A stretch of DNA of 64,000 bases from Halobacteriales archaeon YIM A00010 (lineage in GTDB: Archaea > Halobacteriota > Halobacteria > Halobacteriales > Haloarculaceae): positions 124,001 to 188,000 of the forward strand of contig JAKCFJ010000006.1 of the NCBI GenBank assembly GCA_025041175.1, in the 5' to 3' direction. Each line of letters begins with the position of its first letter. Position 1 is the first letter of the stretch. Below are positions 30,874 to 38,311 of this stretch, one piece after another. The notes under the pieces were generated by a model, which was not told the origin of the DNA, did no database searches, and saw only the letters and a program-made list of their open reading frames with translations. Made by a program: the position numbers and the translations under genes.

Positions 30874-32124
30874 TCAAATATACTGTCTGAGTGGGGATGG
30901 AACAAGCGACTCACTCTCGTCCCCGACCAGTGCTGTGACGACCATCTCTGCTTCAAGCGAGCGGAGATCGTGCGTGTAGTAGCTGGCGTCTGCGATTCCT
31001 TTATTCACTTCGTTAGTACCGATCAGGCCGAGCATGCTCATATTATCCATATAATCGTGGAACCGGCGACTCTTGTTCGGTCTCCTCCCGACAGACTTCG
31101 CGACCTGCGTGTACTGTGAATAAATCTCCCCTCGACGTGCAGGAAGGCTTTCGTTGCGGTCCATGAGCACCATTGTGGCTGCGGTGAGTTGTTCGTGGAG
31201 TGTCAGAGAATGCACGGAGTCCAACACACGAGTGTCCTTAATCTGCTCGCGAGCAGCTTCGATATCTGTCTCAGTGAGCGTATCGTCGCCTCGATCGCGA
31301 GCAGCATCAGCAGCGACTTTGAGGAGATCCAGCGCATATCGTGCATCGCCGCCCTCTTGGGTCGCGTAGGCCGCACACAATTTGATCACATTCTCTCCAA
31401 CAGCACCGTCTCGAAACGCGATCTCAACCCGGCGTCCGATGATCATCCCGAGTTGATCTGCGTCATACCGTGAAAACACGATCTCACGCTCACAGAGTGA
31501 CGACTTCACCTTCGAGGATAGATTCTCTTTAAAGGTCACATCATTACTGATGCCGATGATGGCAGGCCACACCTGCGTGATCTTCTCGTTCGTTTTGGCA
31601 CGAGGGATCTGATACAGCAGTCTATCGCGTGAACCGATGTTATCAACCTCATCGAGGATAATAAGAACGTACTGACGCGAATCGTCCTCTTCGTCCGGAT
31701 TGTCGTTGGAGCCGAGCTGATCAAGTGCGTCAAACATGGTGGAGTAGACTTGTGAACGTGGCAGCCCAGATCTCGGTAGGGATTTTGATGACGGCAAAAT
31801 CGTATTCGCAATCTCGATCGCCACTTGATAGGAGGACGTAAGGTCATCACAATTGAGCCAGATGCTTTCAACGGTAATATCGTCGTAGTTTGTGGCAGCT
31901 GCCGTTAGCGTGTCGATCTTATACCGCATGCATTCTGTCTTGCCAAGCCCGGAGAGTCCATAGAGAAACGCATTTTGTGGCGGCTCCCGGTTAATGATCG
32001 GCTGGAGCGCGCTGTGGATCTCCTCAAGCTCCTCATCACGTCCAAGAATCTTCTCCGGCTGATATGATTCATCAAGAGCGTCGGCATTGACGTACGGGGA
32101 GGACTTCCGACGAAATTCGTCCAT
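30874..32124 (-). CDS. orc1: Orc1/Cdc6 replication initiator, 416 aa
   Basis: AAA+ core with Walker A GLSGLGKTE (about 56-64), Walker B LIILDEVDN (about 153) and sensor-1 GISNDVTF, followed by a winged-helix domain (LTLHEQLTAATMVLM ... MLGLIGTNEVNKG). Orc1/Cdc6 binds origin boxes and loads the replicative helicase. At 416 residues it is of normal length. The start is 23 bases from the first origin unit, so initiator binding should also control its own promoter. Confidence 0.93.
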   Translation of the reverse strand: MDEFRRKSSPYVNADALDESYQPEKILGRDEELEEIHSALQPIINREPPQNAFLYGLSGLGKTECMRYKIDTLTAAATNYDDITVESIWLNCDDLTSSYQVAIEIANTILPSSKSLPRSGLPRSQVYSTMFDALDQLGSNDNPDEEDDSRQYVLIILDEVDNIGSRDRLLYQIPRAKTNEKITQVWPAIIGISNDVTFKENLSSKVKSSLCEREIVFSRYDADQLGMIIGRRVEIAFRDGAVGENVIKLCAAYATQEGGDARYALDLLKVAADAARDRGDDTLTETDIEAAREQIKDTRVLDSVHSLTLHEQLTAATMVLMDRNESLPARRGEIYSQYTQVAKSVGRRPNKSRRFHDYMDNMSMLGLIGTNEVNKGIADASYYTHDLRSLEAEMVVTALVGDESESLVPSPLRQYI

Positions 32125-32146: not shown

Positions 32147-32515
32147 ACTTAAAACCTTCGTTGCAGATAGGGGGTGAAATTGCAAATAGCCAGTTGTTTA
32201 TATATCCCTTCTCCCCCCACTTTTGCACATAGTGTCGCTGACGAACGGGAGGGATAGAATGCCAGCATCATTTATTACTTAAAACCTTCGTTGCAGATAG
32301 GGGGTGAAATTGCAAATAGTCAGTTGTTTATATATCCCTTCTCCCCCCACTTTTGCACATAGTGTCGCTGATGAAGGGTTGAAACACCGATAACGTCCAT
32401 ACCTCCAAACCAGTGTTGCAAATGGGTGAGTGGAGTTGCAGATAGGGGGTGAAATTGCAAATAGCCAGTTGTTTATATATCCCCTCTCCCCCCACTTTTG
32501 CACGTAGTGACGCTC
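32147..32515. other. Replication origin: three near-identical 80-95-bp units
   Basis: Units at 32147-32241, 32277-32371 and 32435-32515. Each holds TTGCAGATAGGGGGTGAAAT, TTGCAAATAG, an AT-rich core GTTTATATATCCC and CCCCCCACTTTTGCACATAG, that is three TTGCAnATAG boxes plus an unwinding-prone tract. The position next to orc1 and the box-core-box layout fit a haloarchaeal Orc1-dependent origin. An extra TTGCAAATGGG lies at 32415. Confidence 0.8.
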
Positions 32516-32682
32516 AGCGCCTTTCGGGGTAGAGTTTCCGGCCTCACCGAACGGAGGATCGGTATCTCGTTGAAGCACACACTTACGTGGGGGGTGAAGA
32601 CCATCACACAAACGGCCATATTTTCTGTCAATAATCTATCTACGTTTGTTAGAACACATAGGGGCTGGCTTGCCGGTCCCTG

Positions 32683-32838
32683 CATGACGTAGCTACGTCA
32701 TGGTGGCCTGCCACGGAGGCAGGCCACCGGGCACGACTGCGGTCGTACCCTTGGGCGGGCTAGGCCCGCCCTACGGGACGTTCCGTCCTTTCGGACGGAA
32801 CGCCCCTCCGGGGCGCGGCCGTAATACGGCCGCGCCCC
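32683..32838. repeat. Array of GC-rich perfect hairpins
   Basis: In order: CATGACGTAGCTACGTCATG (32683-32702); arms GGTGGCCTGCC/GGCAGGCCACC (32702-32728); GGG-c-ACGAC/GTCGT-a-CCC (32729-32750); GGGCGGGC-tag-GCCCGCCC (32753-32771); CGTTCCGTCC-tttc-GGACGGAACG (32779-32802); GCCCC-tcc-GGGGC (32802-32814); and a 13-bp stem GGGGCGCGGCCGT-aat-ACGGCCGCGCCCC (32810-32838), which shares bases with the sixth. It lies between the origin and repH with no gene. Confidence 0.85.
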
Positions 32839-32938
32839 TAGTGATAACGGACTATGGTTGTGGTTTCCAATGCAGAACCATAAAAATACCGATTAGGGAG
32901 CTATACATACGATAGATCATCTAATGCTTACGATCTTC

Positions 32939-33217
32939 CTATCCCAAAGATACCATACCAGAGGAGAGAACACTGACCTCCTTCCCGGTATACACGGCGA
33001 GGTTCTCGCCTCGACGAAAGGTGGTTTCGGAAGCAATCCAGGACGAGTCGGTTCCAAAGCGACTCTTCCTACGCAGCTCAGTCCGGCTTGCCGAGATATG
33101 TCGTTCGGACAGTATCGCCGTCACGCCACTTCCCCCACCGATAGGGACCGTGTGGACAGCCGTCGCAACCAGGCCCGCACGGGACCTTATAAGGCGATTG
33201 ACCGGCGATCGAGTCAC
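32939..33217 (-). CDS. Possible small protein downstream of repH, 92 aa
   Basis: A GTG start overlapping the repH stop codon (GTGA), the coupling seen elsewhere here. The product (VHTVPIGGGSGVTAILSERH ... ENLAVYTG) has strands that could form a small beta protein. It is less acidic than its neighbours, and plus-strand frames overlap it, so support is only the overlap. Confidence 0.35.
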   Translation of the reverse strand: MTRSPVNRLIRSRAGLVATAVHTVPIGGGSGVTAILSERHISASRTELRRKSRFGTDSSWIASETTFRRGENLAVYTGKEVSVLSSGMVSLG

Positions 33218-36200
33218 GCTGGGAGTTGGGCCTGCACCGTCTCGGGCTCGGTACCGAGCCGAGAGGTCACCTCAAACGGGCCGTCAATCCACTCACCCGG
33301 ACCATGCAGACTACCGCCTCCCTCCTTACCGAATAACCAGTAGATCGTGTCAATCCATGGCCTGAGCCACGGCCATCGATCGATAGCAGGCCGGAGATCC
33401 GGGGGCCAGCCCACGAGTCCGTCGGAGATCTCTGTGTCTGCATCGGCCGCATCGCCCAGCCCACGAGCTTCGATGAGACCGTGAACAACGTACCGAACCA
33501 TCGACTGTCCGTCCTCACCGTCACCGTCAGGAAGGAACAACGGTCGAGGAGCGTCTCGATCACCGCATTCGTCACGGAGCGGGAGTGTCAGCCGGTAATA
33601 CGTGGGTTTCCCTGGTCCTAGATCATCGATGGCTAACAGTCCGATCGCTTCCAGAACATCCCGATGGTTGCGAATCGATTGCTTCGAGACGCCCGCTCTC
33701 TCAGCCAGTTCGCCGGTTGACAACGGTTCGGTCGCGGTCAAGAGTGTATACACGAGCTTCGACCGAGCGCTCTTGCGCCGTGACCCATCCTCGTCGGTAT
33801 CGAGATTCGGGAGTAACGCCTCCGGATCGAGCGTACTCAACGCAAATCGCACCTCATCAAGACGGATGTCTCGCTCGAAATCATGAGCGGACGCTAGCCC
33901 TGACAACGCCTCGGCGGTTCTGAATACGCTGTCGGTGAACGCGGCCAGCAACGCCGATGCTGAGCGGGTTAGCGTGAGGTCTTTCATCTCGCAGAGCCGC
34001 TCAGCGGCTTCATCGACGGTTGCTTTACGGGTCGCCTGGCCGATCGACAACTCCACGAGGAACGGCGTGTAATTCCGTTCACCCTCTTGGAGTTCCATCT
34101 CACCCGCTGTTTCGAGATCAGTCAAGTCACTCGCCCAGCGGTCGATTTCCGGCCCACGGAGCACCCACTGGCCGAAACACTCGCCCGTCGGATCAACGTC
34201 GTCGACGTTCGGACAGCCGAGCGAGTCGGCGCGGATCTCGTCATCGTCCTCGTACAAGATCCTGTGGGCAGGGTAGCCGCCATACCGGGAGACGACGGCG
34301 ATGTGTTTGGCGAGCGTCTTCTGATAGATCCGTCGACGATCAGGCCGACGCACGCTGTACCGGTCCGGAAACGTCCATTCTTGGGTCACCGACCACCCGA
34401 GCAGCTCGTAGATCCGCATCGCGGTCCCTGCGAGGCCGTGGGCTCGTTGGCAGACAGAGCGAGCGAGTGAGCTATCAAATCCGTCGTCCGTCCGGATCTG
34501 CGGCACATCCTTGATGATCCCCACGTACTCCGCGGTGAGTTCCTCACGGTAGTCCTCGCCGTTTGCACTCTGTTCGGGAAGACAGCCGAGTTGGTAGATG
34601 TTTCGCAATGCGGTTGTCGAAACGCCCGCTTCAAGCAGCTTCCCGAGCGGCTCGCCATCCTTGTCGAGATTGTCGGCGGTCAGGATCGTGTTCCGCAACA
34701 AGGGACCCAGTAAGCCAGTACAAATCCGCGTCATGGTGAAGGCAGCAACCGGCGACGGTTGGAGGGATACCACGACCTCTTTCCGATCCTCATTATACCC
34801 AACCAAGCAATCACGCGGTTGCTCACGGGTGGGAGCCGCTTCATCAGCGAGAGCAATGTCAGCACCGCTATTTTCGCCAGTACAAGACGCAACGACGGCG
34901 TGTTGATGAGCAGGAGGCAACCAAAAACACCGCGACCCAGGCGCATCATCATCCCCAGCGGGAGCGGTAGTGGTGGCGGTGCCGTCGGCGGTGCTGTCGG
35001 CGGCAGAAGCCGATCCCTTCCCCTCCTCCCGTGCTCGCGCTGAACACACGGACTTGTGGGGGGATTTTGGGGGGGCAGTCAGATCGCCAGTCGACGGCTC
35101 CGATGACTCCGCTTTTGAATCCGGAATGGTCTCATAGTCGTCTAAGCGGCGCTGTGCGTGCCGTTCTTGTTCACGCAGATCGAGGAGCGCCTCGCCCGCT
35201 GGAAGCAGCTGCACGACCGCATCGGCGTTGAGCTGATCGACGCTCACGACGTCGAGCTCGCGGAGCCGGTCGACCCGTTTTTGGACGCCGTTCGCGGAGA
35301 TCCCAAACTTCGAATCCTGCCGGAGCGCAGCGAACTGCCGGCGATTCGATGGAGCGCCAGCGAGTACCTCGAGCACCTCGAAGTACGCGTGCTCGGGGCC
35401 GAGCTCGGCCAGCGCGCGCTCGGCAACATCCTGTGGAGAACCTGCTGGGCAACTCGCATCAGTCCGGTACGGATCTGGGGCCTCAGTCACACAGGCGGTC
35501 GGGAGATCGTCGGCGTGGTGGGCTAGCAGCTTCTTGGGGAGGATGCGACCGGGACAGACCAGCCGGATGTCGATCCCGACCGAGAGGTCAGTCAGGAACT
35601 GCAGAAACGTCTCGCGTTGGTTGCGCTGATAGTCCTCGAAAAACGCGTGCGAGAGCCGGATCGTGATCGTGGGCACAACGTCACAGGCGACGAACAGCGC
35701 GACCGGGCCGTTGATGATATCCGATCGTTCGGTATTCCCGATCGGCGTTGCACCACCTAGTTGGCGCGTCAGCCGGACGATCGCAGCCCAGTCGTCGTCG
35801 GTCGGATGGCGTTTCAACGCATCGAGGAGATACTCGGCATACGCGGGGCTGTCCGCGCTTGCAGGAGCAGTCGCGCCACCGGCTTCAACGAGTGTCGCCC
35901 ACGCTTCGCGGTATCCATCGCCACGCAGCGTGTTGAGCGCGTCGTGAAGCCGGTCGGGGAGCTGGCCGTCCCATGCCTGTTTCCAGAGCTTCGTTGGAGC
36001 GATCGGCGGCTTGATGAGTCGGGCGTCGGTCGCCTCGGGCAACGTTTCTGGTGTCGTGAGCGTGAGCCCCGCCTGTGCTGGGGCATCCGGCTCCGCTCGG
36101 TCGCTGAATGGCGTCGGGGTGGGCTCCGCGCTGGCGTCAGTCGGGGGGACACTCTCCTCGACGAGCTGCTCGAGCTCTCGTTCTCGGCGGTCGAGGTAGA

Positions 36201-36609
36201 TCTCGGCGGCGTTCTCGAATTTCTCGTCTCGATCGAGAACTTCCTCGGCAGCACTCGCGTACAACTCCTGTTGGATCCACTCACTCCGCTCGATCGCTTG
36301 CTGGACGTCGGCCTCGTACAGCTCGTCATACCGCGAGAGATAATCCTCGGCCCACTCACCGAGAACAGCATAGTCGTCTTCACGATCGTACTCCTCGTGA
36401 TGCCCCGCTCGTTGAGCAGCTACGCGTGCCCGGAGTTCGCAGATGGTGTCCTGGTCATCGGCCTGCGCGAGCGCGCGGAGCTGTTTGGTCTTCTGCGTCA
36501 AGCCACACTGTGGGCAGTCTGACGTCTCGTGCTCGTGGCGGTCAGCGATGATCCACAGCGATTCACACTCCGAACAGCCGACGACCGCAAAGCGGGGAGT
36601 GGCGCTCAT
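33214..36609 (-). CDS. repH: RepH-like plasmid replication protein, 1131 aa
   Basis: An N-terminal zinc ribbon of DUF5817 type (VVGCSECESLWIIADR ... CPQCG) leads into a charged helical region. A winged helix lies at about 415-470 (FAALRQDSKFGISANGVQKR), followed by a low-complexity linker (about 490-570), a large helical domain and a C-terminal winged helix (LSTGELAERAGVSKQSIRNH) with an ISDGLVGWPPDLRP tail. Length and order match the roughly 1000-residue RepH initiators of haloarchaeal plasmids; the biochemical activity of the family is poorly known. It is the largest gene of the maintenance region. A second, ruined copy of the C-terminus is at 41628-42060. Confidence 0.65.
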   Translation of the reverse strand: MSATPRFAVVGCSECESLWIIADRHEHETSDCPQCGLTQKTKQLRALAQADDQDTICELRARVAAQRAGHHEEYDREDDYAVLGEWAEDYLSRYDELYEADVQQAIERSEWIQQELYASAAEEVLDRDEKFENAAEIYLDRRERELEQLVEESVPPTDASAEPTPTPFSDRAEPDAPAQAGLTLTTPETLPEATDARLIKPPIAPTKLWKQAWDGQLPDRLHDALNTLRGDGYREAWATLVEAGGATAPASADSPAYAEYLLDALKRHPTDDDWAAIVRLTRQLGGATPIGNTERSDIINGPVALFVACDVVPTITIRLSHAFFEDYQRNQRETFLQFLTDLSVGIDIRLVCPGRILPKKLLAHHADDLPTACVTEAPDPYRTDASCPAGSPQDVAERALAELGPEHAYFEVLEVLAGAPSNRRQFAALRQDSKFGISANGVQKRVDRLRELDVVSVDQLNADAVVQLLPAGEALLDLREQERHAQRRLDDYETIPDSKAESSEPSTGDLTAPPKSPHKSVCSARAREEGKGSASAADSTADGTATTTAPAGDDDAPGSRCFWLPPAHQHAVVASCTGENSGADIALADEAAPTREQPRDCLVGYNEDRKEVVVSLQPSPVAAFTMTRICTGLLGPLLRNTILTADNLDKDGEPLGKLLEAGVSTTALRNIYQLGCLPEQSANGEDYREELTAEYVGIIKDVPQIRTDDGFDSSLARSVCQRAHGLAGTAMRIYELLGWSVTQEWTFPDRYSVRRPDRRRIYQKTLAKHIAVVSRYGGYPAHRILYEDDDEIRADSLGCPNVDDVDPTGECFGQWVLRGPEIDRWASDLTDLETAGEMELQEGERNYTPFLVELSIGQATRKATVDEAAERLCEMKDLTLTRSASALLAAFTDSVFRTAEALSGLASAHDFERDIRLDEVRFALSTLDPEALLPNLDTDEDGSRRKSARSKLVYTLLTATEPLSTGELAERAGVSKQSIRNHRDVLEAIGLLAIDDLGPGKPTYYRLTLPLRDECGDRDAPRPLFLPDGDGEDGQSMVRYVVHGLIEARGLGDAADADTEISDGLVGWPPDLRPAIDRWPWLRPWIDTIYWLFGKEGGGSLHGPGEWIDGPFEVTSRLGTEPETVQAQLPA

Positions 36610-37978: not shown

Positions 37979-38311
37979 CGTTTTCCTGTCTTGGGTTCAT
38001 CTTTCGATCGGTACGGTGACAGGATGCGACAATCAGCGGGTGTGGCTCGAACAATCGGGGCTACCATCCCCGCAGCCCGTGAGGTGCCGAAACACCTTTG
38101 ATCAATGGGCGTATATGTTCGACTGTGCGCTGAGCCAACAGCGCAGTGCTGATCGCCTGGGGGGTCCTGTCAGACGTTCACCCAGGTGATTTCCATTTTC
38201 AGGAAACCATCGCGTTAAAGACTCTTCTACCTCCCGGCCAATAAAACTATCCTTCGCATGCGTAAACTGGGAATGAGATAGTTGTTTGTGCCGGGGGGAG
38301 TTGTTGGATGT
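37979..38311. other. Gene-free stretch between divergent genes
   Basis: 333 bases with promoters implied on both sides. AT-rich toward 38200-38300, short GGGGCTACCATCCCC dyad near 38060; nothing else recognised. Confidence 0.4.

Follow-up and report, generated by a model that had tools for sequence, protein, structure and literature searches.

What does a compact row of hairpins do between the two replication genes of a haloarchaeal replicon? The window (the whole stretch analysed, 64,000 nucleotides of the genome of Halobacteriales archaeon YIM A00010) belongs to contig C6 (219 kb). On the minus strand of the window, repH is followed by the remnant of a gene, a noncoding stretch that is conserved, the row of hairpins, 102-nt repeats, and orc1 (Table 1). 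The product of repH is 32% identical to the Haloarcula marismortui "replication protein H", hence the name. Read in the same direction as repH, the array begins 376 bp past the stop codon and lies ahead of the putative origin. Its location between origin and repH, claimed in the preliminary description, was thus borne out, the origin side being the three 102-nt repeats that adjoin orc1. The window genome contained five RepH-like matches on four contigs (C4, C5, C6, and C7), one of them 85% identical to the window RepH; judging by these matches, it seems to harbour several RepH replicons related to one another.

Repeat search and a chain scan showed that the block at 32683–32838 is filled by six non-overlapping hairpins, with one base shared between two neighbours. 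The stems had 8–14 pairs (two of them with one non-Watson–Crick pair), the loops 3–5 bases, and the spacers 0–3 bases (GGA, GTA, AA, or none). The chain score was 134.7, while the best value in 2000 dinucleotide shuffles of the same 156 bases was 47.0, the highest score among 60 whole-window shuffles was 32.7, and the second-best chain elsewhere in the window reached 34. Folding z-scores for 32660–32860 were −11.3 for RNA of the minus strand, −9.7 for RNA of the plus strand, and −10.7 for DNA of the plus strand. The G+C content was 72% in the array and 55% in the window. The row of hairpins described previously was therefore confirmed, with shuffles far below it, as was the dissimilarity of the hairpins in sequence. 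The earlier count of seven was reduced to six non-overlapping ones, and the seventh probably corresponds to the alternative stem overlapping H1 and H2.

The array was present in a single copy: the search of its own genome returned this locus alone. When 392 genomes of the order were searched at the DNA level (E up to 0.01), 15 gave a match. Apart from the window genome, one of these held a homologue, on contig C21 of Halocatena pleomorpha SPP-AMP-1 (G042), with 71% identity across window positions 32748–33188. Matches in 13 further genomes (best E 4e-5) were short stretches and were rejected; the loci fetched had no comparable array. The covariance model R1, built from the arrays of the window and H. 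pleomorpha, detected 2 of the 392 genomes at E up to 0.01. In the family, 4 of 146 genomes were reported at E up to 0.1, among them G100 (0.046) and G002 (0.054), which were weak and not counted. As far as these DNA and covariance-model searches reach, the array appears confined to one genus. The preliminary description had considered an assembly or vector artefact, or a lack of any relatives; both are countered by the homologue, which comes from a different species that was assembled independently.

Table 1. Features of the array locus and other hairpin arrays of the same genome (window positions unless a contig is named).
Feature	Position	Strand	Remarks
orc1/cdc6 gene	30874–32124	minus	
Putative Orc1-type origin	32147–32523		three 102-nt direct repeats, copies 97% and 79% identical to the first
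Weak outer hairpin	32660–32681	plus	better paired as plus-strand RNA (two G-U)
Hairpin H6	32683–32702	minus	perfect palindrome of 20 bases
Hairpin H5	32702–32728	minus	11 pairs, 5-base loop; H. pleomorpha counterpart uncertain, no confident alignment
Hairpin H4	32729–32750	minus	9 pairs, one U-G on minus strand; 4-base loop
Hairpin H3	32753–32771	minus	8 pairs, 3-base loop
Hairpin H2	32775–32806	minus	14 pairs, one G-U on minus strand; 4-base loop GAAA
Alternative 6-pair stem	32801–32815		overlaps H1 and H2; found by eye from sequence
Hairpin H1	32810–32838	minus	13 pairs, 3-base loop; first in minus-strand order
Leader preceding H1	32839–32865	minus	23 of 27 bases identical in H. pleomorpha
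TATA-like A+T-rich stretch	32880–32886	minus	about 45 bases before H1; candidate archaeal promoter, from sequence
Gene remnant, haloarchaeal CGxxCxGCPHGPY protein	33078–33188	minus	H. pleomorpha homology begins here
RepH-like plasmid replication gene	33214–36609	minus	
Other arrays, contig C1	2303748–2303940 (L231); 2049964–2050095 (L218); 2025671–2025820 (L217)		
Other arrays, contigs C3 and C4	C3:633685–633849 (L254); C4:766593–766766 (L249)		
TnpB-linked arrays	C4:190521–190634; C4:88793–88887; C3:887368–887452		

No Rfam family matched the window at the gathering score, and at loose thresholds the best sub-threshold match was a chance-like sRNA, with nothing convincing. In plasmid collections, the array as a query gave three bacterial plasmid matches at chance level (E 0.8–3), and a 1.1-kb region gave none; in phage collections, the array gave no match. 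Among viral contigs, the 19-base leader pattern occurred on one contig (L117) without an array, which we took as chance; the H2 stem pattern was absent, and no viral relatives of RepH and Orc1 were found. The literature search, which mostly did not extend to subscription journals, returned no paper describing a haloarchaeal array of this sort.

Identity with H. pleomorpha was 78% in the remnant, 71% and 75% in the noncoding stretch, 85% in the leader, and 84% in H1–H4, so that the leader and H1–H4 exceeded the remaining homologous stretch (71–78%). It dropped to 37% over H5–H6 and to 44% beyond the array. H5 and H6 had no clear counterpart, and with homology stopping inside it, the array may merely mark a recombination edge. 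In H1–H4, 12 of 88 arm bases differed between the two species. Of the 44 pairs, 36 were unchanged, four had two-sided changes and still paired, two had one-sided changes and still paired, and two were broken. In H. pleomorpha, H1 carried one paired change and the two broken pairs, and the H2 stem was identical, with its G-U retained. In 20,000 random placements of 12 differences, two-sided changes that kept pairing numbered three at most (observed, four), the mean number of broken pairs was 9.1 (observed, two), and two or fewer broken pairs occurred in 0.01% of placements; this covariation is one comparison of two sequences, because only two members of the array are known. RNAalifold on a MAFFT alignment gave the same picture (two-sided paired changes at 4 of 43 pairs). 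Given these matching changes, the shape of the hairpins seems to matter; arm-to-arm repair or correction in palindromic DNA can mimic paired changes.

Wobble pairs suiting the minus strand occurred in H2 of both species, H3 of H. pleomorpha, and H4 of the window, and one wobble pair, in H1 of H. pleomorpha, fitted the opposite strand. Because of the paired changes, the wobble pairs (3 vs. 1), the conserved leader, and the TATA-like stretch, we tentatively favour, short of calling it probable, a multi-hairpin noncoding element with conserved structure that acts as RNA and is transcribed from the minus strand in the direction of the origin. Among the candidate roles named in the preliminary description, the structured RNA thus gained support; nothing was seen in support of a transfer-related site. 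A minus-strand transcript would start near 32858, approximately 25 bases past the TATA-like stretch, fold into H1–H6 during synthesis, and run towards the origin and orc1. Being rigid, such an RNA could stop transcription across the origin or set its timing; alternatively, orc1 or the copy number of the plasmid could be under its control in cis. Copy-number control in archaeal plasmids with Orc1 origins is, to our knowledge, poorly known. RNA I and RNA II of ColE1 are plasmid copy-control RNAs, and an RNA of several hairpins made at the origin of a plasmid would resemble them in place and shape. In contrast to ColE1, the replicon here is an archaeal Orc1/RepH replicon, and no antisense partner or primer role was seen for the putative RNA. 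Points against RNA are the lack of any terminator-like site (a hairpin followed by a T run) within 32400–33213, the outer hairpin, which favours the plus strand, and the fact that homology stops inside the array.

The placement behind repH, before the origin and in the same direction as the gene, would also suit a transcription stop that shields the origin from read-through. This explanation is highly doubtful, since the same interval has no terminator-like site, the other RepH plasmids manage without the array, and H. pleomorpha keeps the array without an upstream repH: no RepH was found within 40 kb around it (tblastn best E 0.49).

In H. pleomorpha, the array precedes a repeat region and then orc1. 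The same place is occupied by different repeats in the two species, six of 31 nt in H. pleomorpha and three of 102 nt in the window, and the Orc1 beside the H. pleomorpha array is only 28% identical to the window Orc1. Both copies of the array lie upstream of orc1 within approximately 0.6 kb, with the repeat region between; by rough arithmetic, the chance of such proximity is about 0.3%, given 16 orc1 genes in 3.7 Mb. The array is part of a cassette (gene remnant, leader, and array) placed between repH and the origin here and ahead of a different orc1 origin in H. pleomorpha. Since the Orc1 proteins and the repeats differ to this extent, the homologous cassette joins unrelated origin modules. 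On contig C12 of H. pleomorpha, a RepH 69% identical to that of the window precedes orc1, and the intergenic stretch between them lacks the cassette. This cassette-free arrangement, together with the cassette beside an unrelated origin, suggests that the array's edge was the site either of an insertion of the cassette or of an exchange of the origin. Read on the minus strand, the remnant itself corresponds to the C-terminal motif CGPGCDGCPHGPY of a functionally uncharacterized haloarchaeal protein; it is frameshifted in H. pleomorpha. Longer copies of this protein are present in other genomes, and one of these copies had no match in Pfam or NCBIfam. A more specific proposal is that of a new multi-hairpin ncRNA cassette that travels with Halocatena Orc1-type origins, combines with unrelated Orc1/origin modules, and serves as a cis-acting regulator of origin firing. 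We regard it as quite unlikely; if true, it would mean that RNA contributes a layer to the control of replication in an archaeal replicon.

Similar arrays beside repH elsewhere, which the preliminary description had suggested looking for, were found at none of eight other RepH loci, including that of the 85% identical RepH in the same genome. One of the eight (C4:190521) had a different four-hairpin array of the TnpB-linked type just downstream. The array was likewise absent from all 31 other orc1 loci of both genomes (16 plus 15 of the second 16, the remaining one, L288, being the homologue itself) and from 80 orc1 loci taken from other records, which were the best 80 among 224 related stretches. 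A general association of arrays with Orc1 origins was therefore rejected: RepH and Orc1 replicons do not carry the array as a standard component. The other RepH loci do without it, which contradicts a general role in RepH replication. A looser scan of the 80 outside orc1 loci showed one (L145) with an unrelated four-hairpin chain (score 56) approximately 3 kb from orc1. Two other orc1 loci of the window genome had three-hairpin chains, L265 with a score of 56.5 and L273, of the spacer type, with a score of 46.8.

The same counts bear on a replication element at the level of DNA, in which cruciform or single-strand hairpins would serve as a primer site, a lagging-strand start, or a fork barrier. 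It would agree with the repeat region and orc1 adjoining the array in both species, with the DNA folding z-score of −10.7, and with the pRN1 precedent described below, but the array is absent from 8 other RepH loci and from further orc1 loci, 31 in the two genomes and 80 elsewhere, which speaks against it. In addition, the G–T mismatch retained in H2 of both species, unneeded in a pure DNA palindrome, argues against enforced perfect palindromes. We consider this element unlikely. The conserved hairpin block between initiator genes offers a small deletable target for asking whether RNA or cruciform DNA is involved.

The known kind to which the array belongs is the structured noncoding element at a plasmid origin, and its nearest precedent, going by the cited part of the source, is the stem-loop of the Sulfolobus plasmid pRN1: a single family-wide structure of 100 nt downstream of the replication gene, required for replication (PMC4234260). 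In both cases, an archaeal plasmid has a strong noncoding secondary structure 3′ of a replication gene, and, in that part of the source, the pRN1 structure is also retained while its sequence varies among relatives (PMC4234260). Unlike the single family-wide stem-loop described there, six hairpins occur here, and they are absent from the eight other RepH loci checked. As regards a pRN-type placement directly behind the replication gene, the window array lies 376 bp after repH, and the H. pleomorpha copy has no repH nearby.

Outside the window, 17 further chains (score ≥45, at least three hairpins) were found in 1,572,636 bases of the same genome, vs. none in 2.37 Mb of shuffled sequence. Two of them (L218, 4668–4817, and L239, 16613–16745) were dropped by eye as loose stems in coding sequence; some of the 15 retained for inspection also overlap mechanical ORFs. 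Counted with short flanks, these 15 arrays had 56 distinct arms in a total of 70 hairpins, and the loop was of 3 bases in 60 of the hairpins. The stems were mostly of 7–12 bp and differed from hairpin to hairpin, and recurring spacers were of the GAGCCA/GACGTT and TGCTT/TCTGTC types. Three of the 15 lay 42–155 bp downstream of a TnpB match, and part of these arrays may represent omega-RNA-like 3′ regions of IS200/IS605 elements.

These arrays bear on the possibility that the window array is a REP/BIME-like or IS200/IS605-like hairpin element that is decayed or parasitic, lies by the origin by chance, and is of no benefit to the plasmid. BIMEs are intergenic rows of palindromes and are potentially mobile. 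REP and CGTC/GTAG-tagged palindromic repeats are likewise described, in the section of the source cited, as potentially mobile intergenic rows of short palindromes (PMC3733652). The window array shares this form; unlike all these repeats, it is present in a single copy, has no recurring spacer or tag, and consists of mutually unlike stems. It also resembles the TnpB-linked regions of the same genome in having several tight noncoding hairpins in a row, yet those regions have mostly 3-base loops, share spacers, and in some cases adjoin tnpB, which does not apply to the window array, and its stems are mostly longer than those of the other arrays. The sole TnpB match on C6 is at 38,002 and the array at 156,683, approximately 118 kb apart. 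The abundance of other chains, the TnpB neighbourhood of three of them, and the gene remnant accompanying the window array speak for a mobile element; against it, besides these differences, are the paired changes and the adjacency to an orc1 origin in both species. We judge it rather unlikely, and the RNA element is still preferred.

The hairpin arrays elsewhere in the genome could be a repeat class of their own; no Rfam model covered them in the stretches searched. The array of L273 (C3:665158–665238), which is of the GACGTT type, is separated by approximately 0.7 kb from the Cdc6-lid match in a different orc1 gene.
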